A stretch of DNA of 64,000 bases, taken from NCBI RefSeq assembly GCF_031844685.1, contig NZ_CP134605.1:2934001-2998000 (forward strand), written 5' to 3'. The notes beneath the pieces were generated by a model. The model did not search any database. It was not told where the DNA came from and was given only the letters and a program-made list of their open reading frames with translations. A program made the position numbers and the translations under genes. The stretch is from Streptomyces sp. ITFR-21 (GTDB lineage Bacteria > Actinomycetota > Actinomycetes > Streptomycetales > Streptomycetaceae). Below are positions 1,677 through 26,921 of the stretch, piece after piece (positions within the stretch are counted from its first letter, which is position 1; each line of letters starts with the position of its first letter).

Positions 1677-1813
1677 CCTCGTCTCTCGCGGCTGCCGCCG
1701 CTCCGCGCCCGTCCCTGCTCTGACGCGCGCCCCTCCCCCGACCCACCGGGTGATGCCGCCCGCCCGCGCTGACGCGCGCGCCGCGCCGCCCACCGCCACG
1801 CCTGGAGCTCCGC

Positions 1814-2680: not shown

Positions 2681-2790
2681 GCCGACGAAGGGGACGGGAG
2701 CGCTCGTAGAGCCAGTGCGACCGGCCCTCCGAACGCCCCCGTCGCCGCACCTATCAACTTCCGGAGCCGCCCACAGCCACGGAGTCCGCC

Positions 2791-3900: not shown

Positions 3901-3905
3901 CCGCC

Positions 3906-8817: not shown

Positions 8818-9414
8818 TCACCGCCCTGACGTATCCGCAGCGAGCACCGCTCCATCGCTGCCGTCGGCGAAGAGAAAGAAGAGAAAGGTGGGCTCGGCGA
8901 GGATGTCCCGTCCTGCCTCGCTCTTGTAGATCCCGTCGACGCTGCCGAACCGGGCTTCGCTGTAGTCGAGGCCCAGAAGGTTGGCGGCCTCCCGGACGGA
9001 CTGCTCGTCGGGGCCCTCGATCTCCAGGAAGGTGGGCAGGCCGGGCCAGGTGTCGAAGTCGAAGGCGACGTGGCCGAGTTGCCATTCCTCGCGGAAGTTC
9101 TCCTGGTAGCGGACCTCGCGCAGGCCGAGGCTGCTAAGGATCTCGGCCATCGCCTGGAGGTCGCCGACCTCGGTCTCGATCTCGGTCGTCCCATGGATGG
9201 ACGTGGCATCGCTGACCTGCTTGAGGGTGAGCGTGGTGCGCGTTCCTTCATCGCGCAGCCGCACCCACTGCGTGTCGTCGAGATCGTCGCTCTCGAAGAT
9301 CTTCCGTGTGAGCAACGTCCGTGGGAGGGCCTGGATGGCGCCCAGGTCCGCAAGCTTGGTCTGGAGTCCGATCACGTCGACGGACAGGAACTTCGCCTCG
9401 TACTCGTGCTTCAT
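8818..9414 (-). CDS. CYTH-domain protein (class IV adenylate cyclase / triphosphatase fold)
   Basis: A 198-residue protein beginning MKHEYEAKFLSVD. The ExExK signature of the CYTH superfamily is at residues 4-8 (EYEAK), and further family elements follow: a basic/acidic pair in WVRLRDEGTRTTLTLKQ and an acidic strand FLEIEGPDEQSVREAA. CYTH proteins form a triphosphate tunnel and act as thiamine triphosphatases, inorganic triphosphatases or CyaB-type cyclases. Which one applies here is unknown. It follows the TsaC-like gene by 61 bases on the same strand and may handle a nucleotide or triphosphate in the neighbouring pathway (inference). Confidence 0.85.
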   Translation of the reverse strand: MKHEYEAKFLSVDVIGLQTKLADLGAIQALPRTLLTRKIFESDDLDDTQWVRLRDEGTRTTLTLKQVSDATSIHGTTEIETEVGDLQAMAEILSSLGLREVRYQENFREEWQLGHVAFDFDTWPGLPTFLEIEGPDEQSVREAANLLGLDYSEARFGSVDGIYKSEAGRDILAEPTFLFFLFADGSDGAVLAADTSGR

Positions 9415-9475
9415 TACCGCCTTCTTGCCGGGTGGAAGAAAAGAGGGCGCCGACAGTTTGGACGTTGCCATTGAC

Positions 9476-10123
9476 TCAACCGACGAGTTCCCGGCCCAAG
9501 GCAGCCGAGAGAGCGCGTTGGTGGACCAGGCCGGCGCGCACCAGGCGGGCCTCCGGCGTCGAACAGTCGACGATGGCGAGGTGGTCGCCAGCCGGGCAGA
9601 CGCCGCCGTCCAGTACGACGGACACCGGGACGTCGGTGAGCTTGAGGAAAGCCTGGACCTCGTCGACGGTGATCGACGGTCCCGGTGCGTCCGCGTGCGC
9701 GTCTCCGGAGACATTGACAGTGGTCGCGGCGACGGGGACGGCGGCTGCTTCCGCGAGCCTCCCAAGAGCGTCGGAGGAGCGGGTGACCAGGGCCGGGGCG
9801 CCGACCGCCGTGTACTGGGCGCTGGTCTGCTCGTCACGCCACGGCAGGAGGAGGGCGAGGTCACCGGGCCAGAATGCCTCCATGAGCTTGCGGGCTTCGT
9901 GGTGGACGACGAAGTGCCGCTCGCAGTGATCTGCGGAGGGGGACACGAGGACCAGGGACTTCGTGAGGGGACGTTGTTTTGCGTGGAAGATACTGCGGCA
10001 GGCCGCCTCGTTGGTGGCGTCTGCGCAGATCATGTACCAGCGCCGGGTGGGCACGATGACCAGCCCACCGGTCTCGATGGCGCGGGCGGCTTCGTGAATC
10101 TGGTCTAAGGGGATCGATCGCAC
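9476..10123 (-). CDS. Sua5/YciO/YrdC (TsaC-like) family protein
   Basis: A 215-residue protein starting at a GTG (VRSIPLDQIHEAARAIETGG) with GGAAG five bases upstream. The YrdC-fold signature is present: VIVPTRRWYMICADATN near residues 22-38 and KQRPLTKSLVLVS near 50-62, matching the K-x-R...K-S/P block that binds ATP and bicarbonate in TsaC. TsaC makes threonylcarbamoyl-AMP for tRNA t6A. A second copy inside an enzyme cluster is more likely a specialised carbamoylation-type enzyme, as the YrdC domain serves in some natural-product carbamoyltransferases, but that is inference. No C-terminal SUA5 domain is present. Confidence 0.8.
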   Translation of the reverse strand: MRSIPLDQIHEAARAIETGGLVIVPTRRWYMICADATNEAACRSIFHAKQRPLTKSLVLVSPSADHCERHFVVHHEARKLMEAFWPGDLALLLPWRDEQTSAQYTAVGAPALVTRSSDALGRLAEAAAVPVAATTVNVSGDAHADAPGPSITVDEVQAFLKLTDVPVSVVLDGGVCPAGDHLAIVDCSTPEARLVRAGLVHQRALSAALGRELVG

Positions 10124-10245
10124 GGGACTTCCGTTTCTGACGTCGGAGTGTGAGGTCGGCCGTGACCTGTCCGGCCATTCCAGGGCGAATGACTCCCGTG
10201 CCGAAACAGGAGACATCGCGCGCGACCGTGGGCGAGATGATGCGG

Positions 10246-11007
10246 TTACGCCGTCCGTTCCGACAGCAGTGCCGACAGGGGCGGGTAATCGAGCCACGGG
10301 TTCTGCAGAGCTTGGATTTTGCGCTCGGCGTGGTGGATGTGCGAGATGCGGAAGTAGGCCATGACGCGTGGCTCGGTTCCGGTGTTGCTGCCCACCGCGT
10401 GCGGCACGAGGTGGTGCATCAGCAGCAGGTCGCCGGGGTTTCCCAGCAACGGGGTTCCGTCCTGGGCGTCGATTGCCGGTGGTACCTGGTCCGTGATGCC
10501 GGAGGTCCATTGGTCGCGGAACCATCGCGACATCTCCAGGTGAGCGCCGGGCTGGACCCGCAGCGCACCCGCCTTGGGGTCCGTGACGTCGGACAGCACC
10601 ACACCCACGAGCAGGGAAAACGTCCGGAGTTCCTCCGGGTCCAGGTGGGGGCAGGCGACGCCGTCGACGTGCATCGGTTTGACCGGCTGGGCAGTCCGGA
10701 GGAGGTGTTCCGGAAGGCGGATCTGGACCTGAACCGTGGTGACCCGCTGGATGTCTCCACAGAGTTCGACGGCGAGCTGGGCAGCTCCCGAGCGGGTGAA
10801 GAGGGCGAGCAGATCGGGATGGCTGCCCAGCTCGGGAGCGAAGGTGCGCTGGGTGTACTGATCGATGAGGGCCTCGTCCATCGCCTCCCGACACCATTCG
10901 TCGGTGAGCGCTCGGGCGCGGGTGACGAGTGCCGGGTCGACGGCGTCGCGCTTGATGATCAGGCCGTCGCGCAGGAAGTCGTGTTTGTCGTCGACGGTGA
11001 GGGCCAC
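10246..11007 (-). CDS. Phytanoyl-CoA dioxygenase (PhyH) family Fe(II)/2-oxoglutarate oxygenase
   Basis: A 253-residue protein. The iron-binding facial triad is visible: His113 and Asp115 in MHVDGVACPH and His203 in HHLVPHAVGSN; Arg214, 11 residues on (EPRVMAYFRIS), would hold 2-oxoglutarate. These enzymes hydroxylate, halogenate or desaturate small molecules and are common in tailoring steps of natural products. I chose the GTG at 11005-11007 because AGGAG lies seven bases upstream; a TTG two codons earlier is possible. It lies between the creatininase-like gene (27-base gap) and the TsaC-like gene, all on one strand. Confidence 0.88.
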   Translation of the reverse strand: MALTVDDKHDFLRDGLIIKRDAVDPALVTRARALTDEWCREAMDEALIDQYTQRTFAPELGSHPDLLALFTRSGAAQLAVELCGDIQRVTTVQVQIRLPEHLLRTAQPVKPMHVDGVACPHLDPEELRTFSLLVGVVLSDVTDPKAGALRVQPGAHLEMSRWFRDQWTSGITDQVPPAIDAQDGTPLLGNPGDLLLMHHLVPHAVGSNTGTEPRVMAYFRISHIHHAERKIQALQNPWLDYPPLSALLSERTA

Positions 11008-11034
11008 GGGCAAACTCCTGAAAGGCTCGGCCCT

Positions 11035-11832
11035 CTACGGGCGGTGGGTGGTGAGCTGTTCGAGCACGTCAGCGGCGGCGTCGAGAGCTCCGGCCAGAAC
11101 GGACCGGCCGTGGTGGGCGGAGGCAGAACGGGGATCGCCACCGACCACGCCGTGGGTCGCGATAGTGGCGTCGCCCGAGGACCACGGCCAGGTCACCCCA
11201 CGATCGAACACGATCCGCCGGGTTGTTTCCGGGCCTTGGGAGCCGAGGGAACCGTCGGCCGGTAGGCGGTCAAGGTGGACGTCCTCCGGCGCAAGGGCCA
11301 GCATCAGCGAGGTCTCGCGCACACCCGCGTGAACTTCCGGGACCTGCCCTTCTGTCCGGACAGGCGATAGCGCGCTCGGGTGGATCACGCACACCGCCAC
11401 CCCGTACGCGAGGCGCAGCTCGTGCACTGCGGCCTCCAGAACTCCGCGGTTGCCACCGTGGCCGTTGACGATCACGAGATGCCCCGCGGCGGTGGCTCGC
11501 GTGTACCCGCGGACCACCTCGTCCAGCAGGGACAGGAACGTCGCCGCTCGGAGCGTCACCGTGCCGGGCGCCCAGAGGTGCTCCGGTGAGAGTCCGTACG
11601 GCATGGCGGGCAGCGCCCACAGGTCATGGCGTTCGCCGTAGCGCTCGACGAGGAGTTCGGTGAACGCCTCGGCTATGACCGTGTCCGTGTTGAGCGGCAG
11701 GTGCGGTCCGTGCTGTTCGCACGAGCCGATCGGCAGGCACAGCACCGATGTCTTCGTGAGCGCGCCGGTGGTGTCCGGTGCCGCCAGCCGACCGTAGCGC
11801 CGGCAGGCGACAGCCATGGCGGTCCCGGTCAT
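11035..11832 (-). CDS. Creatininase-family amidohydrolase
   Basis: A 265-residue protein with the metal-binding pattern of the family: PIGSCEQHGPHLPLNTDT gives Glu39, His41 and Asp50; VNGHGGNRG has His125; HAGVRETSLML has Glu173. Members include creatinine amidohydrolase, the FAPy deformylase-like ArfB and the mycofactocin maturase MftE, all opening amide bonds with two metals. No mycofactocin precursor or MftC is here. Its ATG overlaps the stop of the upstream methyltransferase gene by four bases (ATGA), so it belongs to the operon running down from 18.5 kb. Confidence 0.85.
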   Translation of the reverse strand: MTGTAMAVACRRYGRLAAPDTTGALTKTSVLCLPIGSCEQHGPHLPLNTDTVIAEAFTELLVERYGERHDLWALPAMPYGLSPEHLWAPGTVTLRAATFLSLLDEVVRGYTRATAAGHLVIVNGHGGNRGVLEAAVHELRLAYGVAVCVIHPSALSPVRTEGQVPEVHAGVRETSLMLALAPEDVHLDRLPADGSLGSQGPETTRRIVFDRGVTWPWSSGDATIATHGVVGGDPRSASAHHGRSVLAGALDAAADVLEQLTTHRP

Positions 11833-12620
11833 TCCTGGGGCCTGCGGCCGATGCGGATGAGGAACTCGTTGTCCTCGGGGAAGGTGTCGTCGTCGCTGTG
11901 CTCGGCGAGCACCGCCTTCACGGAGGTCTCGAACTCCCCGAGGCGGTCGCCGAAGAGGTGTGGTGCGGCGAACGTCGTGGAGTACAGGTAGCCGAGCACG
12001 CTTTCGGCGGTCCAGGTGCGGTGGACCGGTACCCGGATCTCCTCGACCTCGCAGAACGGCGACTCGGCCATGATCTCGCTGTAGGGCCGGTCGTGGTGCT
12101 TGAAGGTCCCGGAGCCCGCCCTGCGCTCCTCGCCCAGGAATTCCTGGACGACTGCACGTACGTCCCGCTTCCAGGCGCTGTCGGCTGCCCAGAAGCTGTT
12201 GTCTCCGAAGATCGCAACGGCTCCGTGCGGAGTGACCTGCTGGTCGAGGAGTCGGAGGACGGCGGCCTGGTCGAGCCAATGGAAGGCCCGGCAGATCGTG
12301 ACGAGGTCGGCCCGCCATCCGGCCGGGGGAACGAAGTCCTCGGCGGTCGTCTCGACCAGCACGAGCTCGCTTCCGGACGGCAGGTCCGGGCGGAGCGCGG
12401 ACTCCGCCGCGGCGAGCATCTCCGCGTCGTTGTCGATGGCGATGATGTCGTCGAACCGGCCGAGCAGGGACTCGGCAACAAGCCCCGTACCAGTGCCGAC
12501 GTCGAGCAGCCGGCGCGGACGGGCCTGCGGGGCAGCGTGGTCGAGGACGACTGCGACCTCCTCGGGGATACCCGGGCGATACTGGCGGTAGAAGCCGACG
12601 GTGCCGGTGAACAAGGTCAT
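11829..12620 (-). CDS. Class I SAM-dependent methyltransferase
   Basis: A 263-residue protein. Motif I LLDVGTGTGLVAESLL (about 39-54) is followed by the acidic end of strand two (IIAIDNDAEML) and the post-II strand DLVTICRAFHWLD (about 105-117). This resembles the UbiE/Methyltransf_11 type that acts on small molecules, with the aromatic FHWLD lid common in actinomycete tailoring methyltransferases. Substrate unknown. Overlaps both neighbours by four bases, so it is translated together with the HAD and creatininase-like proteins. Confidence 0.85.
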   Translation of the reverse strand: MTLFTGTVGFYRQYRPGIPEEVAVVLDHAAPQARPRRLLDVGTGTGLVAESLLGRFDDIIAIDNDAEMLAAAESALRPDLPSGSELVLVETTAEDFVPPAGWRADLVTICRAFHWLDQAAVLRLLDQQVTPHGAVAIFGDNSFWAADSAWKRDVRAVVQEFLGEERRAGSGTFKHHDRPYSEIMAESPFCEVEEIRVPVHRTWTAESVLGYLYSTTFAAPHLFGDRLGEFETSVKAVLAEHSDDDTFPEDNEFLIRIGRRPQE

Positions 12621-13282
12621 GAATCGCTCCGTGTGAGGTGGTGCCGGACGTGGGTGACGGCGTCAACGAGATCGTGGGCGACCCGTATGCGCTGTTCAAC
12701 GAGGAGGCGCGGGTCGGGAACGGTGCGGCCGTGGGAGATCCAGACCGCCCTCGCCCCTGCGGTTGTGGCTCCCTGGATGTCGCATTCCCAGTCGTCTCCG
12801 ACGTGGACGATGCGCGACAACTCCACCCCGCACTCCTCGGCGACCGTCTGGAACGCACGGTCGTCAGGCTTGGCGTAGCCGGTACGGCAGGAGGGGAAGT
12901 GCGCGCTCACCCACGGCGAGAGCAGATCGAGGAGACGCTCCGGATCGGCTTCGGTGCACGTCACGTTCGACAGTGTCACGACGGACGCCATGTCGCTCAG
13001 CGCCCGCAGGGCCTCGACCGTCCCGGGAAACAGCACCAGAGGGGCAACAGGCAGGTCGCGGGGGAAGTCGGACGGCTCGATGCGGAGCGCCAGGCAGACC
13101 CTGTCGACCACGGCCTCGGTGATCTCGGGCACGGTGTGGAGGACGTCGCGCATGACCCTGCGGGCCTCCTTGGGACCGAGGGGCGAGGCAGCCGCCAGCC
13201 GGGCCGCGAGACCGGGTCCTTGCGCGCTTCCGAGCGTGCCCCCGATGTCCAGGCTGATCAACGCTTGCGCCCTTGTCATCAC
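12617..13282 (-). CDS. HAD-like hydrolase with a DxGGT motif I
   Basis: A 221-residue protein of the haloacid dehalogenase fold. Motif I is LDIGGTLG with the nucleophile at Asp12; motif II is VVTLSNVT, motif III contains YAKPDDRAF and motif IV is HVGDDWECDIQGA. The second aspartate of the phosphatase DxDxT motif is replaced by glycine at position 14, which removes the usual general acid/base. A phosphatase role is therefore uncertain; dehalogenase-, phosphonatase- or mutase-like chemistry, or a modified phosphatase, are options. Start is GTG at 13280-13282 or the next ATG. Both overlap the stop of the gene upstream. Confidence 0.82.
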   Translation of the reverse strand: MMTRAQALISLDIGGTLGSAQGPGLAARLAAASPLGPKEARRVMRDVLHTVPEITEAVVDRVCLALRIEPSDFPRDLPVAPLVLFPGTVEALRALSDMASVVTLSNVTCTEADPERLLDLLSPWVSAHFPSCRTGYAKPDDRAFQTVAEECGVELSRIVHVGDDWECDIQGATTAGARAVWISHGRTVPDPRLLVEQRIRVAHDLVDAVTHVRHHLTRSDS

Positions 13283-13719
13283 GCCGCCTCGGGGTGGTAC
13301 GGCGCCAGAGCGGAGACGATGGCCTCGATGCGCGCTGCCCGGATGGCGTCGGTTGTGGCTTCACCGAGGAACGTCAGCGCGTAGCGCAGTTCGGCCGGGT
13401 CGAGCGCATCCACGTCGCGTGCGCGCTCCCGGGCCGCTTCCGTGAGGTCGGCGGGGATTCTGCGCGGGCGTGCGCCGTGCGGCAGGTGCAGGACGGCGGT
13501 CCAATGCGCGGCCAAGGCGGGGACCGCTTCCGTGGGGCGCAGGACGGTGACGTCATCGAAGCTGATGATCCGCACGGGGACAGACTTGGAGCCGAGGTCG
13601 AGTCGGCCGGTGAGAAAGGTGTCGTGTCCTTCGACGTGCTGTTCCAGGACGAGCAGCAGGCCGTGCTCGTCCCGGCGGGTTGTTCCGGTGACGGGGAGCG
13701 TTTCGTTGGTGGAAGTCAC
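13279..13719 (-). CDS. Hypothetical protein of the enzyme cluster
   Basis: A 146-residue protein beginning VTSTNETLPVTGTTRRDEHG. The first 70 residues look like a beta-rich domain (LLLVLEQHVEGHDTFLTGRL, PVRIISFDDVTVL) and the rest like helices (DLTEAARERARDVDALDPAE, RIEAIVSALAPY). I recognise no family, signal peptide or membrane segment. Its GTG overlaps the stop of the enolase-superfamily gene and its stop overlaps the HAD start, so its product is made in step with them. That argues for a dedicated role such as a binding subunit or carrier. It has only one long open frame with good G/C third positions. Confidence 0.65.
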   Translation of the reverse strand: MTSTNETLPVTGTTRRDEHGLLLVLEQHVEGHDTFLTGRLDLGSKSVPVRIISFDDVTVLRPTEAVPALAAHWTAVLHLPHGARPRRIPADLTEAARERARDVDALDPAELRYALTFLGEATTDAIRAARIEAIVSALAPYHPEAA

Positions 13720-14774
13720 TGCGGTCTCCGGGGCTCGGTGCCTAGGCCGGCGGATGCGGGTGAGGGGAAAGCGCCGTGTACGGGCGTCCAGGGCCCCTTG
13801 TAGAGCTGCTGGCGGCGTGGCTCCCACTGGCGCCGGTACTCGACCGCCGGGACGACGTCCGGGAACGCCGCCGCGAGGTGAATGCCGGGTACGAGGGAAC
13901 GGCCGTGTGGGTAGAGGGAAGTGCTTGCCTCCCGCGCCGCAGAAACGATTTCGACAGCACGGGTGAGCCCGCCGCAGCCCACGACGTCGATCGTGAGGGC
14001 GGCAGGCCGGATCTCGCCGAGGAGACGCGGCAGGTCCTCCTCGGGCATGAGCATCTCCCCGACCGCCAAGGGAAGGCCGGTGGCGGCGAGACGTCCGTAG
14101 ACCGGCAGATCGTGCTCAGGCAACGGGTCCTCTAGCCAGAGGAGCGCTGAGGCGTCCACCTGGGCAGCGAACGCGGTGCTCAGTTCGGGGTTCCATGTGC
14201 CGACCGCGTCGACGGCGAAGCCCGTGCCGAGATGCTGGGCGGCCCGCTGTACGGCGCCCACGAGGTCACGGGCTTCGGAGGCGATGGTCGGTCCCGGCCG
14301 CCGGCGCAGGCCCCACTTGGTGAACGCCCAGCCTTCCTCGGCCACTTGCACGAGCGCATCAGGCATTTCCGAGCTGGTGAGGTCCGCCCGGAGCCATGAA
14401 GCGTAGGCGGGGACCTGGGTGCGAGCGCGCGGCTGTGCCATCAGTTCGGCCACCGGTTTACCCAGCAGGCGTCCGTGCAGATCCCAAACCGCGCAGTCCA
14501 CGGCGCCTACGGCCCATTGTTCGAGCCACCCGCGTCGGTCACCGCCGGCCGCCCTGCACAGCCGCCGTACCAGGCCCCAGTGATCGGTGACGGGGGTACC
14601 GGCCGCGGCTGCGGCGATGGCCTCGACGGCGCGACCCACCTCCGTGCTGACAGGGCCGTACCAGCCGACGTCGCCGCCGCCCCGCGCTGCCACGAAGACG
14701 GTGTCGTCACCAGGGCAGCTGGCTTCTGCCGTCAGGACAACCTCGATCCTGACCAGGGCGGGCTCCATCATCAC
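13716..14774 (-). CDS. Enolase-superfamily enzyme (mandelate racemase / muconate lactonizing type)
   Basis: A 352-residue protein with the barrel motifs of the superfamily. FTKWGLRRRPG (about 150-160) stands where MR enzymes have the catalytic lysine after strand 2; the pattern is KWG rather than KxK. DAVGTWNPEL (about 193-202) gives the first metal ligand, LLWLEDPLPEHD the second and LAVGEMLMPEED the third. SLYPHGRSLVPG carries a histidine where MR-type enzymes have their second base. Such enzymes dehydrate or epimerise carboxylates by removing an alpha proton. The likely substrate is an acid sugar or similar. It sits between the phosphoketolase-like gene (4-base overlap) and the unknown protein (4-base overlap). 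Confidence 0.85.
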   Translation of the reverse strand: MMMEPALVRIEVVLTAEASCPGDDTVFVAARGGGDVGWYGPVSTEVGRAVEAIAAAAAGTPVTDHWGLVRRLCRAAGGDRRGWLEQWAVGAVDCAVWDLHGRLLGKPVAELMAQPRARTQVPAYASWLRADLTSSEMPDALVQVAEEGWAFTKWGLRRRPGPTIASEARDLVGAVQRAAQHLGTGFAVDAVGTWNPELSTAFAAQVDASALLWLEDPLPEHDLPVYGRLAATGLPLAVGEMLMPEEDLPRLLGEIRPAALTIDVVGCGGLTRAVEIVSAAREASTSLYPHGRSLVPGIHLAAAFPDVVPAVEYRRQWEPRRQQLYKGPWTPVHGAFPSPASAGLGTEPRRPQ

Positions 14775-16816
14775 GCCGCCTCTCGCTTCCGGTCCACCAA
14801 CCGGCGGGCCGCGCGCAACAGGCCGGCCGGGTCGAGACCGAGCTCGTGAGCCAGCACCACTTGCGGCGCGGGTTGGAGTGGCTCACGCCAGCCGACGACC
14901 TCGACGGGACGCCCGAGCCTTCCGCCCAGCAGCCCCCACACCGCGGCCGGGTGGCCGAGGGTGACCACGAGCACGGGTACGTGCCGGCCGAGGTAGCCGT
15001 CGAGTTCGGAGTCGGCCAGCCCACGCGGCCAGACGGCCGGATCACCGAGGACCGTCAGATCGAGGACGCTCACGACGCGGACCCGGCACCCGAGCTTCTC
15101 CCGGATGACGGGCACCGAAGCGGTGGCGACGTCGGCGGGGAGATCCCCGGCGACCACGACCGTCAGTCCAGGCTCTCCGTCGTCGCTGAGGTGCGGCCAA
15201 ACGGCCAGGCCGTGCCTCTGCTCCTCGCTGATCGTGGCGGTGGGATGGTTCACGGTGGCGTGCTTGCCGACGATCAGGACGTTGATGCGTCCGACGGAAC
15301 CGAGCGATTCATCCAAGGCGACAGCCGCCCTTCGCGGATCCGCAGGCGTCAGCACGCGCACCGCTGGGTCGCCAGTGGCGAGGAGCATACTGGCCAGGGA
15401 GGGATCGCCGTGGGTGTACACGTTGTGCCAGCCGTACGAGGTGAGCAGCAGATTGAGGCTGGGGGACGGCTTACCCACGGCGAGGCGCCGGTGCTTGCTA
15501 TGCCCGACGATGCCTGCGGCGAGGAGGGGCGAGAACGCCTCGTACGAGATCAGAACGCCTCGCCGGCCGCTGGCCGTCCATCCGGACAGCCAGCCCAGGA
15601 GAACTTCTTCGGCCAGCACTTCGGACACCCAGGGTTCGTCCTGCAGCTCCGCAAGGTGGTTCGAGGCGAGTTCGTCGGGGCTGAAGACCCGGAGGTCTCC
15701 GACGGCGGCGTGGCCACGCAGAACCTTGGCGATGGCGTGCCCGAACCGGTCGCCGCCGGGATTCCTTGTGTGGAACGGACTGGGCCAGGGCGTCTTTGCG
15801 TGACGAGCAGCCAAGTGCCATCTGGCCGCGCCCAGCGCATCGGCGAGGTCGCCTGCGGGTTGCCCGCTGCCGTCGAAGAGCTCGGCGGGCCGGTAGGAGG
15901 CCAGCCACTCCTCCAGCTGCTTCCGCTGGAATTCGTCGTATCGGGCGCCGCTCAACGGTGTCTTGTGGGCGTGCGCTGTGCCCAGCACACGTTGGCCCCC
16001 CACGGTCTCCGGACCGCTCCACCCCTTCACGCATCGGAGGAACACTGCTGCCCGGTCGCCGCCAGCGGACTCCTCTAGCGCCTCCGAAAGCGCCGTACGG
16101 AAGGCGCAGTGTTCGTCGTCCGAAGCTGCCCCGACATCGACCACGCGGCCACGCCAGCCCAGCCCAGCCGCGTACGCACGGAGCTGCGCGTCGTCCATAC
16201 CGCCGAGCAGCGATCGGTCACCCATCCTGAAGCCGTTGACGTGCACGATGGGCACCACCGCGCTGTTCTGCAGCACGCGGGCCGCGAGCCAGGAAGCAGC
16301 AGTCGTAGGGGTCTCGCATTCGCCGTCGCCAATGACGGGAACCACGACCCGGCCCGGAAAGTCGGCGGCCAAGCCGTGGCTGAACGCCAGTACACCGCCG
16401 AGACAACCGCCTGGAGCAGCGCCCGCCGCCAGGAGCGGGTGGACCTCGGAGCCGAGTCCATCGGTCTCGGGGAAGTCGCGGGCGAGCCGGGCAAGCCCCT
16501 GGGCATCGCGAGAGTACTGGGGGCGAAGCATCGCGAGCTCGCCGGTCAGCCACGCGAACGCCAACTGGACGACGCCCGCGTGGCCCGCGCCCAGTACCGG
16601 TACGACCTCGCGACCGGGCGGCGCTTCCCCTGCCGCAAGCACGATGTGCGCGAGGGCCAACGCGGTGCCGGGAACGGTGCCCCAATGACCCGACGGCCGC
16701 GGCTTGACGTGCCCAGCCTCAAGCGGCTCGGCCAGCAGGACGTTGTCGTTCAGGTGGAGAAGCACCACCGAGATGTAGGTGGCGGCCCGCCACAGCGCGT
16801 TCGCCTGACTCGTCAC
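14771..16816 (-). CDS. Phosphoketolase-family (XFP) thiamine-diphosphate enzyme, short form
   Basis: A 681-residue protein starting at a GTG (VTSQANALWRAATYISVVLL). It has the phosphoketolase marks: VKPRPSGHWGTVPG (38-51), GAGHAG (76-81), SEVHPLLAAGAAPG (123-136) and the ThDP/Mg motif VIGDGECETP (161-170), then IVHVNGFRM. Classical xylulose-5-P/fructose-6-P phosphoketolase is about 790-820 residues and splits sugar phosphates to acetyl phosphate plus an aldose phosphate. This protein is over 100 residues shorter, and several otherwise strict spots differ (GAGHAG for GPGHG, SEVHPLL for the usual PGSIHEGGELG). It may use another ketose in the pathway. Coupled by 4-base overlaps to the radical-SAM-like gene upstream and the enolase-superfamily gene downstream. 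Confidence 0.85.
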   Translation of the reverse strand: MTSQANALWRAATYISVVLLHLNDNVLLAEPLEAGHVKPRPSGHWGTVPGTALALAHIVLAAGEAPPGREVVPVLGAGHAGVVQLAFAWLTGELAMLRPQYSRDAQGLARLARDFPETDGLGSEVHPLLAAGAAPGGCLGGVLAFSHGLAADFPGRVVVPVIGDGECETPTTAASWLAARVLQNSAVVPIVHVNGFRMGDRSLLGGMDDAQLRAYAAGLGWRGRVVDVGAASDDEHCAFRTALSEALEESAGGDRAAVFLRCVKGWSGPETVGGQRVLGTAHAHKTPLSGARYDEFQRKQLEEWLASYRPAELFDGSGQPAGDLADALGAARWHLAARHAKTPWPSPFHTRNPGGDRFGHAIAKVLRGHAAVGDLRVFSPDELASNHLAELQDEPWVSEVLAEEVLLGWLSGWTASGRRGVLISYEAFSPLLAAGIVGHSKHRRLAVGKPSPSLNLLLTSYGWHNVYTHGDPSLASMLLATGDPAVRVLTPADPRRAAVALDESLGSVGRINVLIVGKHATVNHPTATISEEQRHGLAVWPHLSDDGEPGLTVVVAGDLPADVATASVPVIREKLGCRVRVVSVLDLTVLGDPAVWPRGLADSELDGYLGRHVPVLVVTLGHPAAVWGLLGGRLGRPVEVVGWREPLQPAPQVVLAHELGLDPAGLLRAARRLVDRKREAA

Positions 16817-17904
16817 GGGGCCACCAAGCTCTCGTCGCCGAAGGTGAAGTACCAGAGAGGCCGGTAGCACTCCCATGCCTTCGGACGCAGGCCGGTGGGG
16901 CCGGCGATCTGCTCGATCTCCTGCCTGGCTCGCAGGTAGAAGTCCAGGGTGTCCGAACCGTCCGCCCGGAGCCCGGCCATGATCGCGTTGTGGGCCTGGT
17001 ACACCTGGAAGTTCGGGAACTCCGTGGTGAAGGGCATCAGTTCGCTGACGCCCCTGCGCAGCTCGTCCAGAGTGTCGAGACCGACGACGTAGGTGAACGA
17101 GGTCCCGTGGCCCGCCTGCATGGCCCGCCGGAGAACGTGTGGCATTTCGTCGGCGGTCAGGATCGCTTTGCTGGCCTTCAGCAGCAGGTCCCGGCGGCTG
17201 AAGCACTCCGCTGTGAGCCGCAGCACGAACGGCGCCACGTGCTCGGCCAACTCCTCGAACGCCTGCCTGCTGCTGATCACCGAGGTGAGGAAGCCGATCC
17301 GGGCACCGACTCCGTGCACGTTGAGCACCTCCCGGAGGCCGAGCAGGTGGTCGACGGCTGCACGCTCGCGCTCGAAGCACCCCGTCGAAACGGTGACCTC
17401 GGCGAGTTCGCGCAGGTTGCGGCGAGGGTGCTGTTCGGTCATCGCGGCCAGCAACTCGCTGAGCTGGCGCTCCTCCGCCAGCCGGGGATCAGCTGCGGCC
17501 TCCAGCGTGTTGGGGCAGAACGCGCAACCGACACAGCGGCTGCGGGCGTTGGGATTGAGGGTCGCCGCACGCCCGTCGTCGCGGAAGTACCCGCCGACCG
17601 CCTCGTCGGCGGCCACCCGCTCGACGGTGCCGATCGGGATGCCGGCCAGAGACAGCTCGTCGCCCCGTAATGAGAAGGGGGAAGCCTGCGCGTTCAGCGG
17701 AACGATCACCATCCACGGAACGTGCGGACGGGAGGTGAGGCGTATGGACATGCGTGCCCTGTGCCTGCCGTGAGCGGAAGCGATCCCGAACAGGTTGATC
17801 GCGATGAGCAGCGCGTCCTCCACGGGGACATGGTGCTCGTCCGCCATTCGTCGGATCGCGGAAAGTGTGAGCGGCGCCGATGTCTTGCTCAGGGATGTGG
17901 TCAT
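16813..17904 (-). CDS. Radical-SAM-like protein with a CxxCxxC cluster motif
   Basis: A 363-residue protein; the ATG at 17902-17904 has GGAGG at good spacing. A cysteine cluster RCVGCAFCPN puts Cys at 124, 127 and 130. What follows reads like a partial TIM barrel: LAEVTVSTGCFERER, ARIGFLTSVIS, VAPFVLRLTAECFSRRD, TSFTYVVGLDTLDEL. These strands, and the aromatic residue before the last cysteine, fit a radical SAM enzyme. The spacing is two residues in both gaps, not the usual three then two. The N-terminal 110 residues form an extra beta-rich domain. If it is a radical SAM enzyme it would be the most unusual catalyst of the operon. The alternative is another [4Fe-4S] protein. Confidence 0.65.
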   Translation of the reverse strand: MTTSLSKTSAPLTLSAIRRMADEHHVPVEDALLIAINLFGIASAHGRHRARMSIRLTSRPHVPWMVIVPLNAQASPFSLRGDELSLAGIPIGTVERVAADEAVGGYFRDDGRAATLNPNARSRCVGCAFCPNTLEAAADPRLAEERQLSELLAAMTEQHPRRNLRELAEVTVSTGCFERERAAVDHLLGLREVLNVHGVGARIGFLTSVISSRQAFEELAEHVAPFVLRLTAECFSRRDLLLKASKAILTADEMPHVLRRAMQAGHGTSFTYVVGLDTLDELRRGVSELMPFTTEFPNFQVYQAHNAIMAGLRADGSDTLDFYLRARQEIEQIAGPTGLRPKAWECYRPLWYFTFGDESLVAP

Positions 17905-18527
17905 GGACCCTCCGAGGGGGCTTGAATCGGGGTCTGCCAAGTCCGACGGTGTGCCCGTCCCGCAACTGGCTGTTGGGACTGCCCGTCTCGCGACGTACTG
18001 GTCACAAGCTCGGCCCAGACGGTCTTGCCTCCTGGCGTCTCTCGCTCGACGCCCCACCGCCCGCAGAGCGCCTCGACCAGGAGCAGCCCGCGGCCCGTCT
18101 CCGTCGAGGAACCCGGCGCCTTCTGGCGGGGGAGGGAGGAGCCGGGGTCCGCGACTTCGATCCTGAGCCGCTGGTATCCCGGCTTGAGGCGCACGTCGAA
18201 GCAGTCGCAGTCGTCTGCCTGAGAGTGCAGCACGGCGTTGACAGTGAGCTCGGACGCAACAAGCTCGGCGTCATCGATGAACTGCGTCGCGTATCCCCAT
18301 ACGTCGGTGACCCTCCGCACCAGGGCGCGGATGGCGGGCACGGAGCTGGGCGAGTTCAGGAACGTCATCTGCAGGGCCACGCAGCCGCCGTCAGCGTCGA
18401 GCAACCCGTTCTCGGGAACGTCCCGGTCCCCTGCCAGGCTGTCCCGCTCCGCCCCGTAGAGAGGCACGCACGGACCGTCCGCGGCAGCGGGAGGAACGCG
18501 CCTCATCTGCTGTCTCGACCGGTCCAT
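17901..18527 (-). CDS. ATP-binding protein of the anti-sigma/HATPase (RsbW-like) type
   Basis: A 208-residue protein. The GHKL ATPase fold is seen from about residue 55: ASELTVNAVLHSQ (N box with Asn), RIEVADPGSSLP (D-x-G) and a late TGRGLLLVEALCGRWGVE (G-x-G-L). This is the HATPase_c_2 type common next to XRE regulators in Streptomyces, where they act as ATP-dependent anti-sigma-type kinases or partner proteins. It is the first gene of the minus-strand operon, its stop overlaps the radical-SAM-like ATG by four bases, and it is divergent from an XRE/TPR regulator. It probably takes part in control of the cluster (inference). GAGGAAGG lies eight bases before the ATG. Confidence 0.85.
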   Translation of the reverse strand: MDRSRQQMRRVPPAAADGPCVPLYGAERDSLAGDRDVPENGLLDADGGCVALQMTFLNSPSSVPAIRALVRRVTDVWGYATQFIDDAELVASELTVNAVLHSQADDCDCFDVRLKPGYQRLRIEVADPGSSLPRQKAPGSSTETGRGLLLVEALCGRWGVERETPGGKTVWAELVTSTSRDGQSQQPVAGRAHRRTWQTPIQAPSEGP

Positions 18528-18665
18528 CGACTACGCCTTCCTCATCTAAAACAGCCTGTGCTGACAACTGCTTGATGCCACGTCAGAACGCTAGGAGGAT
18601 GAACCGCGAGGAACCCGGAAAATTCTTCCGGGGTCCATGAACCGGACGACGCCAGGCTGGAAAGC
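18528..18665. promoter_or_regulatory. Divergent promoter region with a CCCGGAA-N5-TTCCGGG operator candidate
   Basis: The 138 bases between the HATPase gene (left, minus strand) and the XRE regulator (right, plus strand). A perfect inverted repeat with 7-base arms, CCCGGAA at 18614-18620 and TTCCGGG at 18626-18632, separated by AATTC, lies 34 bases before the regulator ATG. Its place suggests that the XRE protein binds here to control itself and the cluster. I see no confident -35/-10 pair. Confidence 0.5.
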
Positions 18666-19892
18666 ATGCAGGGGATGACCGACAGTTTGAGCATCGGCGA
18701 ACGTGTCGCCTGGTACCGGCGGCGGCGAGGCATGCCGCAGGAGGTGCTCGCTGGATTGGTCGGCCGGACTGCCGACTGGCTGAGCAAGGTGGAAAACAAC
18801 CGCATCGATCTCGACCGGCTGTCGGTGATCAAGGTTCTGGCGGACGCTCTCGACGTCCAACTCGGCGATCTCCTCGCCGAGCCGTCGCTGTTGGACTGGG
18901 CCAGCGCCAGTCAGGCCAGCACGGTACCTCGCTTACGCGAAGCACTCATGGACTACAGGCGTATGTCGCCGCTGCTTGCGGTCGACAAGCCGAACGACCT
19001 CCCTGACCTGGAGATCCTGCGCGCCGAGGTCGGGTCGTCATGGTCGGCCTACCAGGACGCCAAGTACACCCGGGCTACCCGGCTGATCCCCGACATCCTG
19101 GCTGACGCGCAACGCGCAGTACGTGGATATGAGGGAGACGCCCAGCTCCAAGCGAAAGCGCTACTGGCGATGGCGTATCAGGGTGCGGCGATGGTGCTGA
19201 CGAAGATCGGCGAGGCGGATCTGGCCTGGATGGCAGCCGATCGAGGCTTGGGGGCGGCGCAGGAGTCAGGGAACCACGTTGTCACCGGCTCGCTCTTCCG
19301 GTCCGTCGCCCACTGCCTCCTCTCCAACGGTCGGCTCACTGCGGCCCGCGACCTCGTTGCCGACTCCGCCGGCTACCTGGAGCGGGGACTCTCCGACGCC
19401 TCACCGACCTACGTGTCGGTCTACGGCACCCTCTTCCTCGTCGGGGCCGTGGCCGCGGCCCGCCTTGACGACCGGGCCACCGTCCGCGCGTTTCTTGCCG
19501 AGGCCGACGGCGCGGCGCAGCGCCTCGGCCAGGATGCCAACCACATGTGGACGGCCTTCGGCCCCACAAACGTGGCCATCCACCGAATCTCCACTGCGAT
19601 GGAACTCGGCGACGTCCAGGTCGCTGCCGACCAAGGGCCCCGGGTGGACTCCTCCACCCTCCCTCTGGAACGCCGCGTCCGCCACACCCTCGAAGTCGCC
19701 CGCGCCTACAGCGCCCAGAACCGCACCGACGAGGCCTTGGCACTCGTCCTGGACGCGGAGGAACTCGCCCCCGAGCAGGTCCGCTACCACTTCATCTCCC
19801 GCCACCTGGTGACTGCCTGGGTCCGGCAGCAGAAGGGCAAGCCGAGCCACCAACTGGCGGGCGTTGCCCACCGGCTCCGCATCGTCGGGTGA
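18666..19892 (+). CDS. XRE-family transcriptional regulator with TPR-like C-terminal domain
   Basis: A 408-residue protein. The N-terminal helix-turn-helix (about 8-70) reads IGERVAWYRRRRGMPQEVLA, GLVGRTADWLSKVENNRIDL, a classic XRE domain. The rest is a long array of helical pairs (LAMAYQGAAMVLTKIGEADL, GSLFRSVAHCLLSNGRLTAA and others) like the TPR sensor half of BldD-adjacent, SARP-linked or peptide-sensing regulators. These bind a signal and change DNA binding or partner contacts. It is divergent from the enzyme operon and probably its local regulator. The start chosen has GGAAAG upstream; a second ATG three codons later is possible. The NUDIX gene follows 26 bases after the stop. Confidence 0.88.
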   Translation: MQGMTDSLSIGERVAWYRRRRGMPQEVLAGLVGRTADWLSKVENNRIDLDRLSVIKVLADALDVQLGDLLAEPSLLDWASASQASTVPRLREALMDYRRMSPLLAVDKPNDLPDLEILRAEVGSSWSAYQDAKYTRATRLIPDILADAQRAVRGYEGDAQLQAKALLAMAYQGAAMVLTKIGEADLAWMAADRGLGAAQESGNHVVTGSLFRSVAHCLLSNGRLTAARDLVADSAGYLERGLSDASPTYVSVYGTLFLVGAVAAARLDDRATVRAFLAEADGAAQRLGQDANHMWTAFGPTNVAIHRISTAMELGDVQVAADQGPRVDSSTLPLERRVRHTLEVARAYSAQNRTDEALALVLDAEELAPEQVRYHFISRHLVTAWVRQQKGKPSHQLAGVAHRLRIVG

Positions 19893-19918
19893 CGTGCCCA
19901 GCCGCTACAGTCATCGAC

Positions 19919-20389
19919 ATGAGCGAGCCCCAAGACCAAGAGGCAGTAGCCCAGCCCCGCACCGCGGCCGGCGTGCTCATCTTCGACGAGGCTGGCCGTG
20001 TCCTCCTGGTCAACCCGACCTACAAGCCCGGCTGGGAGATCCCCGGCGGCTACCTCCACCCCGGAGAGACCCCAAGCGAAGGCGCCGCCCGCGAGCTGAA
20101 GGAGGAGCTGGGCCTCACCACCCCCATCGGCCGCCTCCTCGTCGCCGACTGGGCCCCCCACCCGAGCGAGGGCGACAAATTCCTCTTCGTCTTCGACGGC
20201 GGCCTCATCACCGACGCGGACCGTGCCCAGATCACCCCGGACGGCGAGGAGATCGGCGAGTATGCCTTCCACGACGAGGACCAGATCGACACCATCCTGA
20301 TCCCCCGCCTCGCCCGTCGTATCCACGCAGCCTTCATGGCGAGAGCGACCAGGCGAACCGTCTACTTGGAGAACGGGGAGCCTGCATAA
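19919..20389 (+). CDS. NUDIX hydrolase
   Basis: A 156-residue protein with a textbook Nudix box: GGYLHPGETPSEGAARELKE followed by ELGL (about 43-66), carrying the metal-binding REXXEE. NUDIX proteins cleave nucleoside-diphosphate-linked compounds; this subtype is near the MutT/ADP-ribose pyrophosphatase-like proteins of Streptomyces. Substrate unknown. It is probably co-transcribed with the XRE regulator and converges on drmC with only 15 bases between the stops. Confidence 0.9.
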   Translation: MSEPQDQEAVAQPRTAAGVLIFDEAGRVLLVNPTYKPGWEIPGGYLHPGETPSEGAARELKEELGLTTPIGRLLVADWAPHPSEGDKFLFVFDGGLITDADRAQITPDGEEIGEYAFHDEDQIDTILIPRLARRIHAAFMARATRRTVYLENGEPA

Positions 20390-20404: not shown

Positions 20405-21151
20405 TCAAGAGACGCGCTCGTACAGCGTTCCCTCCACCTCGTGCAGTTCTCGCTCGACGGCTTCGGTGAGGCTCGGGTTATCGATGAGGACGCCGAACTC
20501 GACGTTGGTGTTCTCGGCGCTCCAGGAGAAGTTCGCGCTGGTGACCAGCAGGAGATGGTGATCAACGGCGAGGAACTTGGCGTGATTGCGGACGTAGCCG
20601 CCGTCGAACTCCTTCGTCCGCCACACCTCGGCAGGAGCGAGGTGCGCGGCCACCTCGGAGGTGGACGGGGACCAGTGATGGCCATTGTTGTCGGCGGCGC
20701 GGGCGTCGAGGTAGACGCGGACGGCAACGGAATCGCGCTGTGCCGCCGATCGCAGGGAGGTCCAGAGGGCTGAGCTGCGCTGGAAGTTGTAGGTGGAGCA
20801 GGTGATCGCGTGGCGGGCGCTGTCCACTATGCGGGGTACGGACGTGGTGAGCGGGCCGCTCTGGGCGAGGTGGCCCGGCATCGTCCATAGGGGGGACAGC
20901 GTGCTGGGGAGTGCCCGTGCGCCCTCGATAGCACGCAGGACGAGCACGTACTGGTCTCTCGCCGCGAGGCCGTGCCCCATGGCCTCCAGGAGTTGCCGAG
21001 TCTCTGCCCTGCGGCCGGGGGCGACGACCTTCAGGGCCGTGGTCAAGGTGTCGCCGTCGGCCAGGCGGTCGGCGACATCCTTGGCCTCGGTGCCGGTGAG
21101 GAGCCGGCCGAGCAGCCGCGGTGCGTTCGCGACGGTCGGGCGTCCGCTCAT
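20405..21151 (-). CDS. drmC: DrmC, phospholipase-D-fold protein of DISARM
   Basis: A 248-residue protein with one HKD motif: His190, Lys192 and Asp197 in RNHAKFLAVDHHLLLVTSAN, followed by the SANFSWSAENTNVEFGVL block of the PLD superfamily. DISARM DrmC proteins have this single PLD domain and this size. Its role is not settled; in the first characterised DISARM system it was dispensable for protection against some phages. Last gene of the operon; its ATG overlaps the drmB stop by four bases (ATGA at 21148-21151). Confidence 0.93.
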   Translation of the reverse strand: MSGRPTVANAPRLLGRLLTGTEAKDVADRLADGDTLTTALKVVAPGRRAETRQLLEAMGHGLAARDQYVLVLRAIEGARALPSTLSPLWTMPGHLAQSGPLTTSVPRIVDSARHAITCSTYNFQRSSALWTSLRSAAQRDSVAVRVYLDARAADNNGHHWSPSTSEVAAHLAPAEVWRTKEFDGGYVRNHAKFLAVDHHLLLVTSANFSWSAENTNVEFGVLIDNPSLTEAVERELHEVEGTLYERVS

Positions 21152-23181
21152 TCAGCGGCCTGGAAGAAGCCGAGGGTGCTGCCGGGCAGGTCCAGGAGGA
21201 ATCGGCGGTCGAGGAAGCGGTTGGCGCGTTCGCACGAGGTCTCGGAGGCCATGACGCAGCAGTGGCAGGCGGCGCCGTGCAGGAAGTCCTCGGGATCCTG
21301 CGGGGTGCGCTTGGCGCAGATCGGATCGGAGGAGCAACGCGCGGCCTTGCGGAGCGCATTGGCGACGACGCCTTCCAGGCGCTGCGGTTCGCTGAGCTGG
21401 ACGAGGCCGCCGAGGGTGCCATCGCTGTCGGAGGCCGTGGTGCAGATAAGCAGGCCGGCGGCAGGGGGGCGGTCGCCGTCGGCGGGCCAGGCGTAGAGGC
21501 GTTCGCTGAGGCTTGCGGCCGAGTAGCCGCAGGTAAGGGCGAGTTCGCGGATGAGGACGTGGGCAAGAGTGTGCACGAGCCAGTAGCGCGGTGGCTTGAG
21601 GCGGCTGCTGGGCTTGATCGTGGCCGCGGTCTCGGAGAAGCGGCGCTCGAAGTTTCTGTCGTGCGCCGCTTCATGCAGTTTCCACAGGGCGCTGTTTCCG
21701 ACGCGCTTCTCCCAGGCTGCGACCGTGCCCTCGTCGAGCTGGAGGAAGATCCCCTCGCCCCGGTCCTCGGTGGCCACGGTCCAGGCCGGCCTGGGCGTAC
21801 GGGTCAGCGGCACCAGGCGGCGCGGCAGGTCACCGGCGCGCTCCATGTCGTCGATACGTGTGAAGCCGACCAGAGCGTTGACCTTGCGCAGGCGCTCGAC
21901 CGCGAGGACTCGGGTGATCTTTGCCGGCAGTGACTCACCCCGAGCCCTGGTGGCGAGGGCGAGTCCGCTCGTGGGATCCTCCACTCCCGGACCGATGATG
22001 TCGCGCAGAAGGTAGTTCCACTCGGGGACGAGCAGGTCCACCGGATCCCAGTCTCGAAGCTTCTGCTCCTGCTCCTCCGGGGTGTCGGTGGGCGCTGAGG
22101 CCGCCTGGAGGACCTGCTCGAGGTCGTGGTCGGTCAAATTGGTGACGTCGACGCCGCCGGGCATCCCGAGCAGGTCCCTGACCATGTCCAGGCTGTTCCG
22201 GTACTTCGCGAGCTTGTCGCCGAGGGACGTACGGACTCGGTCGGCCAGGTCGCTCTCCTTCTCCTCCTTCGACTCCGGCATCACGATGATCGAGTGCGTG
22301 GCCGGGAACCACAGGTTGGAGGCGCCGACGAGCATCAGCCTGGTTTCGTTCCCGCAGCCCTTGGGCTCGAAGGCGTCCAGGTGCGGGTGGCGACCGCGGC
22401 AGCGCGGGAGCTTCGCCCTTCCGGCCTCGCCCTGGGCCTCGTTCATCGGCCGCCGCATGTCGCACGAGGCGCAGCGGATCAGGGCCGAGGCGCCCTTGCC
22501 CGCAGTCCGGTCGACCATCTTCAGCGCGGGCAGTTCCGCCTGCGCGCAGGGCTGCCCGTGGTGCACCCACAGGTCGTAGGGGAACTCGTCCAGGTGCCCG
22601 TCGACGCAGGCCAGCAGATACCGCGCCGGGATGGCGGTACGCCGCGTGGGTTTGCGCACGCCGGCGCCGGCGCGGCCCGTGCACTTGGCGTGCTCGAAGA
22701 CGGCAAGGTCAGTCCGGAACGGGTGTGTATTGCGGTAGTCGAACTGCGTGACAAGACCGAGCATGTCGCAACCTGTGCACCGCAGCCACTGCGGGAAGAC
22801 CCGGGCGGGGACTCCCAGGTCGTTGCCTTCGGTGGAGCGGCTGTGCTTCTTCGGCTGCCAGGGGTACGGCCGCAGCTGCACGTCCGGCGCCCGCAGCATG
22901 AGCCGTACCACGTCACGCAGGCGCGGAGCGTGGATCTGCGGCGGGGCGGACTCGCGGCGGCTCCAGATGCGGTCCCATTCGTCGAGGCCTGTGGGCATGA
23001 TCGTGAACTGCGGGAGGTCCATGATCGCGCCGGGGCCGTAGGTGTAGAGCAGGGACGAGGGGCGGGCCGACCCGACCTTGGCACGGTTGTGCTTGGTCGC
23101 CTTCTCGGCTTCCTCCTCCAGATCGCCCAGCGGATCGACGGCGTGGGCGACGTCGTGGACGTAACGCGTCTCGTCGCTCAC
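21148..23181 (-). CDS. drmB: DrmB, DUF1998 protein of DISARM
   Basis: A 677-residue protein starting at a GTG that overlaps the drmA stop (GTGA at 23178-23181), with GGAGG upstream. The N-terminal LLYTYGPGAIMDLPQFTIMP is a conserved opening of DrmB. Zinc-type cysteine pairs follow (RCTGCDMLG near residue 130, RCASCDMRR near 245). The C-terminal DUF1998 domain has HTLAHVLIRELALTCGYS and a cysteine cluster CHCCVMASETSCERAN. DrmA and DrmB form the core DISARM complex that binds DNA ends or 5' overhangs and is held in an autoinhibited state until phage DNA is met. Length agrees with the family. Confidence 0.95.
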   Translation of the reverse strand: MSDETRYVHDVAHAVDPLGDLEEEAEKATKHNRAKVGSARPSSLLYTYGPGAIMDLPQFTIMPTGLDEWDRIWSRRESAPPQIHAPRLRDVVRLMLRAPDVQLRPYPWQPKKHSRSTEGNDLGVPARVFPQWLRCTGCDMLGLVTQFDYRNTHPFRTDLAVFEHAKCTGRAGAGVRKPTRRTAIPARYLLACVDGHLDEFPYDLWVHHGQPCAQAELPALKMVDRTAGKGASALIRCASCDMRRPMNEAQGEAGRAKLPRCRGRHPHLDAFEPKGCGNETRLMLVGASNLWFPATHSIIVMPESKEEKESDLADRVRTSLGDKLAKYRNSLDMVRDLLGMPGGVDVTNLTDHDLEQVLQAASAPTDTPEEQEQKLRDWDPVDLLVPEWNYLLRDIIGPGVEDPTSGLALATRARGESLPAKITRVLAVERLRKVNALVGFTRIDDMERAGDLPRRLVPLTRTPRPAWTVATEDRGEGIFLQLDEGTVAAWEKRVGNSALWKLHEAAHDRNFERRFSETAATIKPSSRLKPPRYWLVHTLAHVLIRELALTCGYSAASLSERLYAWPADGDRPPAAGLLICTTASDSDGTLGGLVQLSEPQRLEGVVANALRKAARCSSDPICAKRTPQDPEDFLHGAACHCCVMASETSCERANRFLDRRFLLDLPGSTLGFFQAAE

Positions 23182-26918: not shown

Positions 26919-26921
26919 GTT

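Follow-up and report, generated by a model that had tools for sequence, protein, structure and literature searches.

The cluster motif of radical S-adenosylmethionine (SAM) enzymes is C-x3-C-x2-C, phosphatases of the HAD family carry the motif D-x-D-x-[TV], and K-x-K is a motif of the acid-sugar dehydratases of the MR subgroup in the enolase superfamily. In phosphoketolases, His97 acts as the proton donor in the dehydration of the thiamine diphosphate (ThDP) intermediate, His142 and Gly155 speed up that step, and His64, Tyr501 and Asn549 make up the phosphate site, according to PMC6435721; PMC10547157 lists the same pocket residues. Here, we describe an operon of Streptomyces sp. ITFR-21 that joins apparent relatives of these enzymes. 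It lies in a stretch of 64,000 nucleotides, hereafter the window (positions 2934001-2998000 of contig C1, in a genome of 7.36 Mb). We consider, with a probability of roughly 70%, that this operon is a horizontally transferred cassette dedicated to a specialised metabolite that is small and polar and probably derives from a carbohydrate. The sequence evidence lies in the set of genes, in their conserved co-occurrence and order, in purifying selection, in a conserved operator-like palindrome and in five core proteins that have diverged in parallel.

All eleven minus-strand genes that an earlier note had described at positions 8818-18527 of the window are present, with a divergent XRE/TPR regulator at their head. 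Gene models were drawn from open reading frames, inspection of start codons and a codon-usage gene finder, all of which concur on the genes, some starts being uncertain. The four-base overlaps ascribed to most of the genes are found at seven of the ten junctions, provided that the genes of the enolase-superfamily enzyme, the OmdA-like protein and the HAD protein start at GTG; the creatininase/PhyH, PhyH/TsaC and TsaC/CYTH junctions are gaps without overlap. Pfam and NCBIfam agree with the families proposed for these genes, except for the radical-SAM-like protein itself, which matches no model of either collection at E<=1.

This radical-SAM-like protein (RSAM; 363 aa, 16813..17904, minus strand) is the best marker gene of the cluster family and was used for the homologue searches, which resulted in 33 loci (one per record or genome). 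The neighbourhoods of 28 of them were studied, L047-L050, the plasmid match H8 and second places in two plasmid records being set aside; these 28 loci are not fully independent and include the close pairs L017/L018, L019/L020, L037/L042 and L038/L043. In 25 of the 28, RSAM is co-located with a phosphoketolase-like enzyme (PK), an enolase-superfamily enzyme (ENO), a HAD-family protein and a class I SAM methyltransferase (MT). The five-gene core is thus kept together, the opposite of the scattered homologues that would have refuted the note, which supports the previous proposal of a dedicated, conserved gene cluster lacking a scaffold synthase. The three neighbourhoods without the full core are a contig end (L045) and two decayed remnants. 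In L023, RSAM is intact and ENO and PK are reduced to remnants; in L031, a 75-residue RSAM fragment (9787-10011) lies beside the flanking genes that border a whole cluster in L022. This suggests that gain and loss affect the cluster as a whole, and L031 likely records a loss event.

Furthermore, the nine-gene order RSAM-PK-ENO-OmdA-HAD-MT-CREAT-PhyH-TsaC (CREAT being a creatininase-family amidohydrolase) is found in 11 of the 28 neighbourhoods (the window, L015-L021, L037, L042 and L044) and spans Streptomyces and Actinoplanes/Paractinoplanes. Among these loci, a transposase-type gene separates RSAM from PK in L044, a single extra gene precedes TsaC in L017 and L044, and the CREAT match is in two pieces in L016 and L018, perhaps through frameshifts. 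The order is rearranged in L022 and L041, which have no CREAT, and in L046 (contig end), where the OmdA-like gene was not found. The MT (263 aa, 11829..12620, minus strand; Methyltransf_11, 2.3e-10) has a homologue in every one of the 25 core clusters, encoded on the opposite strand in L039 (Mycobacterium). The CREAT gene (11035..11832, minus strand; PF02633, 6.6e-55) and the TsaC/Sua5/YrdC-like gene (9476..10216, minus strand, alternative start possibly 10123; PF01300, 6.8e-25) had both been counted as parts of the cluster; they are indeed found there, but as optional members, in 12 and 15 of the 25 clusters, respectively. A second type of cluster, found in 11 of the 25 (L024-L029, L030, L038/L043 from Nocardia, L039 and L040), encodes a GGDEF-like protein whose Pfam scores are just below the cut-off. 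GGDEF and CREAT are mutually exclusive across the 25 clusters, and the idea of a pair resembling GTP cyclohydrolase III and a deformylase was dropped since the two never occur together.

RSAM homologues are scarce in the genus (2 of 35 genomes, including that of the strain itself) and occur in 14 of 394 genomes of the family, 5 of 394 of the class, 6 of 297 of another family (two being short pieces) and 1 of 35 of a third family. Beyond Actinomycetota, the search extended to genome contigs scanned with close-relative patterns, to plasmids and to viral contigs: the contig scan gave four loci, 8 of 72,556 plasmid records match, and no match to the marker was found in the viral contigs scanned. 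Divergent versions of the cluster are carried by plasmids of Nocardia, Mycobacterium and Streptomyces. The near-absence from the genus, together with these plasmid copies, argues for joint transfer. A search with the short PK in 388 genomes of the family (E<=1e-90) gave ten matching genomes, nine of which also have an RSAM homologue; the tenth match (G051) was rejected as a cluster, being a canonical enzyme of 800 aa whose surrounding stretch holds none of the remaining cluster genes. The genome of the strain encodes a separate second phosphoketolase, which is canonical, and eight relatives each have a single match of that strong kind.

The distance matrices of RSAM, PK, ENO, HAD and MT are correlated in all ten pairs (0.84-0.97, 23-25 loci), none of 999 permutations reaching such values. 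The OmdA-like rows were excluded from these correlations, the GGDEF protein being substituted in some clusters. Moreover, the cluster genes are under purifying selection, as judged from dN/dS ratios of 0.10-0.38 for nine genes against L015 and of 0.18-0.34 against L019. The CYTH gene (8818..9414, minus strand) lies outside this conserved unit. It had been included in the cluster and was dropped, since a tblastn comparison of 17 loci detected it nowhere but in the window and its near-identical sister L015, the labels of genes in the remaining loci concurring, and since its dN/dS against L015 is 0.85. The isochorismatase and FAD oxidoreductase genes located downstream were dropped likewise: among the 17 loci compared, they are shared only with L015, despite a dN/dS of 0.24 for the isochorismatase gene.

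The cluster PK (14771..16816, minus strand) is a divergent ThDP enzyme of 681 aa. It had been described as short, and it is so next to the 784-798 aa of four of the six canonical enzymes compared (from this genome and relatives); the other two (693 and 1113 aa), whose starts from the gene finder look wrong, were left out of this range. It passes the Pfam cut-offs for XFP_N (3.6e-63), XFP (1e-20) and XFP_C (2.6e-10) and falls below all six NCBIfam phosphoketolase cut-offs (at best 383.6 bits versus 777). In B. breve numbering, residue 142 being readable from the alignment to chain 3ahc, His64, His97, Gly155, His320, Ser440 and Glu479 are kept in all 25 cluster PKs, and Tyr501, Asn549 and His553 in 24; His64, Glu479, Tyr501 and Asn549 are ThDP and phosphate-site residues. 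Glu, which is residue 124 of the window PK, occupies the position of His142 in 25 of 25, versus His in six of six canonical enzymes. In addition, Gln321 is replaced by Lys in 24 and by Arg in one, and Gln546 and Asp547 are missing in all 25; none of the six canonical enzymes departs from the standard residue at any of these positions. These alignments indicate an enzyme in which the enamine-forming and phosphate-binding machinery is kept and the dehydration step and the sugar pocket are altered.

RSAM also departs from its presumed family. None of the 27 proteins of the family called by the gene finder has C-x3-C-x2-C; all 27 have C-x2-C-x2-C instead (C124-x2-C127-x2-C130 in the window), within the motif CxGCx[FW]CPN, for which a separate alignment of 17 was used. 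The motif C-x2-C-x2-C occurs in the published literature. The L024 homologue (42% identical) matches the Radical_SAM Pfam model with E=4.5e-4 and 20.9 bits, under the cut-off of 29.5 bits, and some homologues carry a radical SAM annotation in public records. The predicted structural model has low confidence (pLDDT 55.6), and Foldseek returned nothing with it at E<=0.001; its top two matches are not radical SAM proteins, lipoyl synthase ranking third (E 0.014) and viperin fourth (E 0.023). When the RSAM alignment was searched against the sequences of solved structures, the matches, beta-propellers among them, seemed fortuitous. RSAM is likely to be a radical SAM enzyme. ARAGORN also called a 96-nt tRNA-Ser (GCT) at 16879-16974, antisense within the RSAM gene; this call is probably false because it is seen in L015 and not in L017, L019 and L020.

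ENO (351-352 aa, 13716..14774, minus strand; MR_MLE_C, 1e-26) has K152, W153, D188, E214, E239, D262 and H289 invariant in 24 of 24 homologues with a called gene. These residues include a Lys, the Asp/His pair and the three acidic ligands of the metal expected in the MR subgroup. The HAD protein (220-221 aa, 12617..13282, minus strand; PF00702, 4e-11) contains the DxGGT motif noticed earlier. Its first Asp is kept and followed by Gly at +2 in 24 of 24 proteins, of which 22 were scored by pattern and the two from Nocardia were read directly; a HAD encoded nearby in L016, which is unrelated, was excluded. The second catalytic Asp is therefore missing, which sets the protein apart from ordinary D-x-D phosphatases. 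The 146-aa protein encoded next to it (13279..13719, minus strand) had been viewed as an isolated unknown. It has a weak OmdA match of its own (E=0.3) and is homologous to a domain of sister clusters with a sub-threshold OmdA match (E=3.3e-4, 21 versus 25.6 bits, alignment of 16). Moreover, both proteins are joined in one reading frame in L017, L018, L030 and L039. Given this homology and these fusions, we regard it as OmdA-like and as a partner of the HAD protein. Its AlphaFold model shows a six-strand beta-barrel and three helices (pLDDT 79.5); a fold search with this model gave no match at E<=0.001 and, among the 50 matches listed, mostly beta-barrels of ATPases with TM scores <=0.42. The PhyH-type iron/2-oxoglutarate oxygenase (10246..11013, minus strand; PF05721, 5.9e-11) belongs to a family in which at least one H-x-D is found in 14 of 14 proteins.

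A small polar product reached from a sugar phosphate had been envisaged. The enzymes are compatible with such a route; however, PK, HAD and RSAM depart from canonical active sites, and textbook reactions therefore cannot simply be assigned to them. RSAM, PK, ENO, the HAD/OmdA-like pair and MT would make one core intermediate, which PhyH, CREAT and TsaC would tailor. We propose a four-part logic, the details of which are doubtful. PK would cleave a C-C bond of a keto-sugar or keto-acid; since Glu replaces His142, the two-carbon or acyl product, or else the acceptor, is expected to differ. ENO would remove an alpha-proton from a sugar-acid-like carboxylate, and the HAD/OmdA-like pair would act on a phosphorylated intermediate without the usual acid-base Asp of phosphatases. 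The radical enzyme and the oxygenase may next modify the carbon skeleton; methylation would follow and, in the subtype of the window (type 1), carbamoyl or amide chemistry performed by the TsaC-like protein and CREAT. Additional genes of sister clusters encode two kinds of transporter (ABC and major facilitator superfamily), further radical SAM proteins, a luciferase-like oxidoreductase, a gluconolactonase and an ATP-grasp-like protein with a sub-threshold match. These genes, like the APH-family genes mentioned below, fit the biosynthesis of a polar compound.

The XRE/TPR regulator (18666..19892, plus strand; HTH_31, 1.4e-11) has close homologues (86-95% identity) in three other loci, L015, L019 and L020, always in the corresponding position, and a NUDIX gene (19907..20389, plus strand; PF00293, 2.1e-20) of unclear role follows it in all four. 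Between the XRE gene and the HATPase gene lies the inverted repeat that had been noticed at the head of the operon, a palindrome GGAACCCGGAA-N5-TTCCGGGGTCC (18610..18636) with 11-nt arms that are 91% complementary. Its 25-base core is identical in the window, L015, L019 and L020, and a further block is also conserved. The 25-base pattern has a single site in the genome at <=3 mismatches, versus 0 for the reversed control. The palindrome core alone is not rare in the window at 2 mismatches (2 sites, a number reached by 9 of 100 shuffles), and its weight as an operator comes from conservation and from the single occurrence of the longer pattern. The palindrome is a probable operator of the XRE protein, which would bind it and probably controls the operon through it. 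The HATPase_c_2 protein (17901..18527, minus strand, alternative start possibly 18467; PF13581, 2.8e-13), which resembles RsbW and anti-sigma factors, may modulate this control. As in biosynthetic gene clusters, the enzyme genes are co-inherited with a regulator that they would share.

Other genes surround the clusters. In the window, matches to DISARM DrmC, DrmB, DrmA, DrmMI and DrmD, which we take to be a full class 1 set, lie at 20405-34177, after the NUDIX gene and directly beside the operon. DISARM DrmD and DrmMI genes are also found in L020 (15027-19901), about 2 kb past the NUDIX gene of its cluster. On a plasmid of Streptomyces avidinii, L042 has type I-U CRISPR-Cas genes (196-5087) at a distance of a few kb from its cluster. 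Such neighbours are consistent with mobile accessory islands, and a functional link with the cluster is possible. A relaxase-like gene, recognised by eye, is located left of the operon (3594-5600), and homologous pieces lie near L020 and L031. On the Nocardia plasmids of L038 (9868-11448) and L043, a pyrF copy and a GntR gene lie beside the cluster, with a nucleoside hydrolase gene further off; this region could be a target copy. An APH-family gene, convergent with the end of the cluster, is found on the plasmids of L037 (20207-21199, checked with Pfam) and L042 (20213-21199), where it is a possible self-resistance gene.

Several observations weigh against a dedicated biosynthetic cassette. 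The deposited phosphoketolase-family chain 9cd3 has Ser at the position of His142, so that this residue is not universal in the family, and the radical SAM assignment is built on weak matches. Purifying selection alone is no mark of membership, given the value of the isochorismatase gene, which is not conserved. The permutation test leaves relatedness in: kinship of the genomes contributes to the correlations, and the loci are not all independent. In addition, five genomes with the RSAM marker (G094, G194, G225, G336 and G393) are not among the PK matches at E<=1e-90; the loci of G225 and G336 are decayed, the PK of G094 and G194 is shortened or has diverged further, and PK is present in L027 of G393, a genome possibly outside the sample drawn for that search. 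The window operon was found to hold neither a scaffold synthase nor a dedicated exporter or a resistance gene; no PhyH homologue was found in the Nocardia and Mycobacterium clusters and no GGDEF-like protein in type-1 clusters. This accessory set varies between lineages, and a single common product is therefore not assured.

PK, ENO and the gluconolactonase of L030 belong to carbohydrate-degrading families, and in L017 (Paractinoplanes) an amino-acid permease gene and a formamidase-family gene lie upstream. The operon could thus serve the catabolism or salvage of an unusual sugar acid, ENO dehydrating it and PK cleaving the product to acetyl phosphate. We consider this unlikely since radical SAM enzymes, methyltransferases and oxygenases are unusual in catabolism, the distribution is patchy and often plasmidic, catalytic residues of PK and HAD are changed, and a sugar kinase, an aldolase, a dehydrogenase and a sugar uptake system are not among the genes of the window operon. 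A system directed at nucleotides or nucleic acids and residing in a defence island (making a modified nucleotide, a signalling molecule or a chemical anti-phage defence) would account for the DISARM and CRISPR-Cas genes near the clusters of the window, L020 and L042, for the GGDEF-like proteins of the second cluster type, and for pyrF and the nucleoside hydrolase near the Nocardia clusters; the creatininase and YrdC families also contain nucleotide-related enzymes. However, the other annotated plasmid stretches have no recognised defence system beside the cluster (few genes elsewhere being scanned for defence), GGDEF and creatininase exclude each other, no gene of the operon was recognised as encoding a DNA-modifying transferase, and the invariant core consists of sugar-type enzymes, all of which makes such a system improbable. 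Lastly, chance adjacency of independently useful genes, as might be suggested by the edge genes (CYTH, isochorismatase and FAD oxidoreductase) restricted to the window and its sister, is rejected as extremely improbable by the gene order and neighbourhood conserved across genera, the parallel divergence and the purifying selection.

The analysis defines a family of clusters that is searchable by sequence, through a CxGC-x-[FW]-CPN protein encoded beside a short phosphoketolase with Glu142. No assembly-line genes were recognised in the window copy, and such clusters are harboured by natural-product producers and, on plasmids, by two opportunistic pathogens. The literature searched, which was covered at the level of abstracts, most subscription journals being outside reach, gave no account of the cluster; as far as this literature goes, the cluster points to a class of natural product not yet isolated. 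If the altered active sites perform new chemistry, they would provide a new reaction of the phosphoketolase family and an addition to the few non-canonical radical SAM motifs. More speculatively, the clusters of Streptomycetaceae, Actinoplanes, Nocardia and a mycobacterial plasmid might represent a new class of natural-product pathway, in which a repurposed PK with invariant Glu142 would turn a keto-sugar into an unusual carbon skeleton, acting together with a non-canonical C-x2-C-x2-C radical enzyme and a HAD/OmdA-like pair that differs from ordinary phosphatases. Such a pathway may yield an antimetabolite or a chemical anti-phage defence carried by mobile defence islands. This is possible, although short of probable.

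Compared with known systems, the window operon resembles the mycofactocin cluster in joining a radical-SAM-like protein with a creatininase relative of MftE. However, CREAT scores 136.3 bits, under the MftE cut-off of 172, no NCBIfam radical SAM model is matched, that of MftC included, and neither a precursor peptide nor a glycosyltransferase was recognised among the operon genes; membership of the mycofactocin family is therefore ruled out. ENO retains the metal ligands and the Asp/His pair of the MR-subgroup acid-sugar dehydratases (L-talarate/galactarate and galactonate; best PDB chain 3sqs) but has a single Lys followed by Trp rather than K-x-K and scores far under all listed NCBIfam equivalog cut-offs (at best 66 versus 500 bits). 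PK shares with the xylulose-5-phosphate/fructose-6-phosphate phosphoketolases (PDB 8io8, 3ahc) the three XFP domains, the ThDP motif and the positions His64, His97, His320, Glu479, Tyr501, Asn549 and His553; it differs from them in being about 110 aa shorter, with a shorter C-terminus, in Glu for His142 and Lys or Arg for Gln321, and in the deletion of Gln546 and Asp547. Further counterparts are the GGDEF-containing sister clusters, for example those of Nocardia farcinica pNF1 and of a Mycobacterium intracellulare plasmid, whose records annotate the genes one by one, with no cluster annotation. These clusters add a GGDEF-like protein, and homologues of creatininase, TsaC and PhyH were not found in them, but the core of RSAM, ENO, HAD, OmdA-like protein, PK and MT is common to them and to the window.

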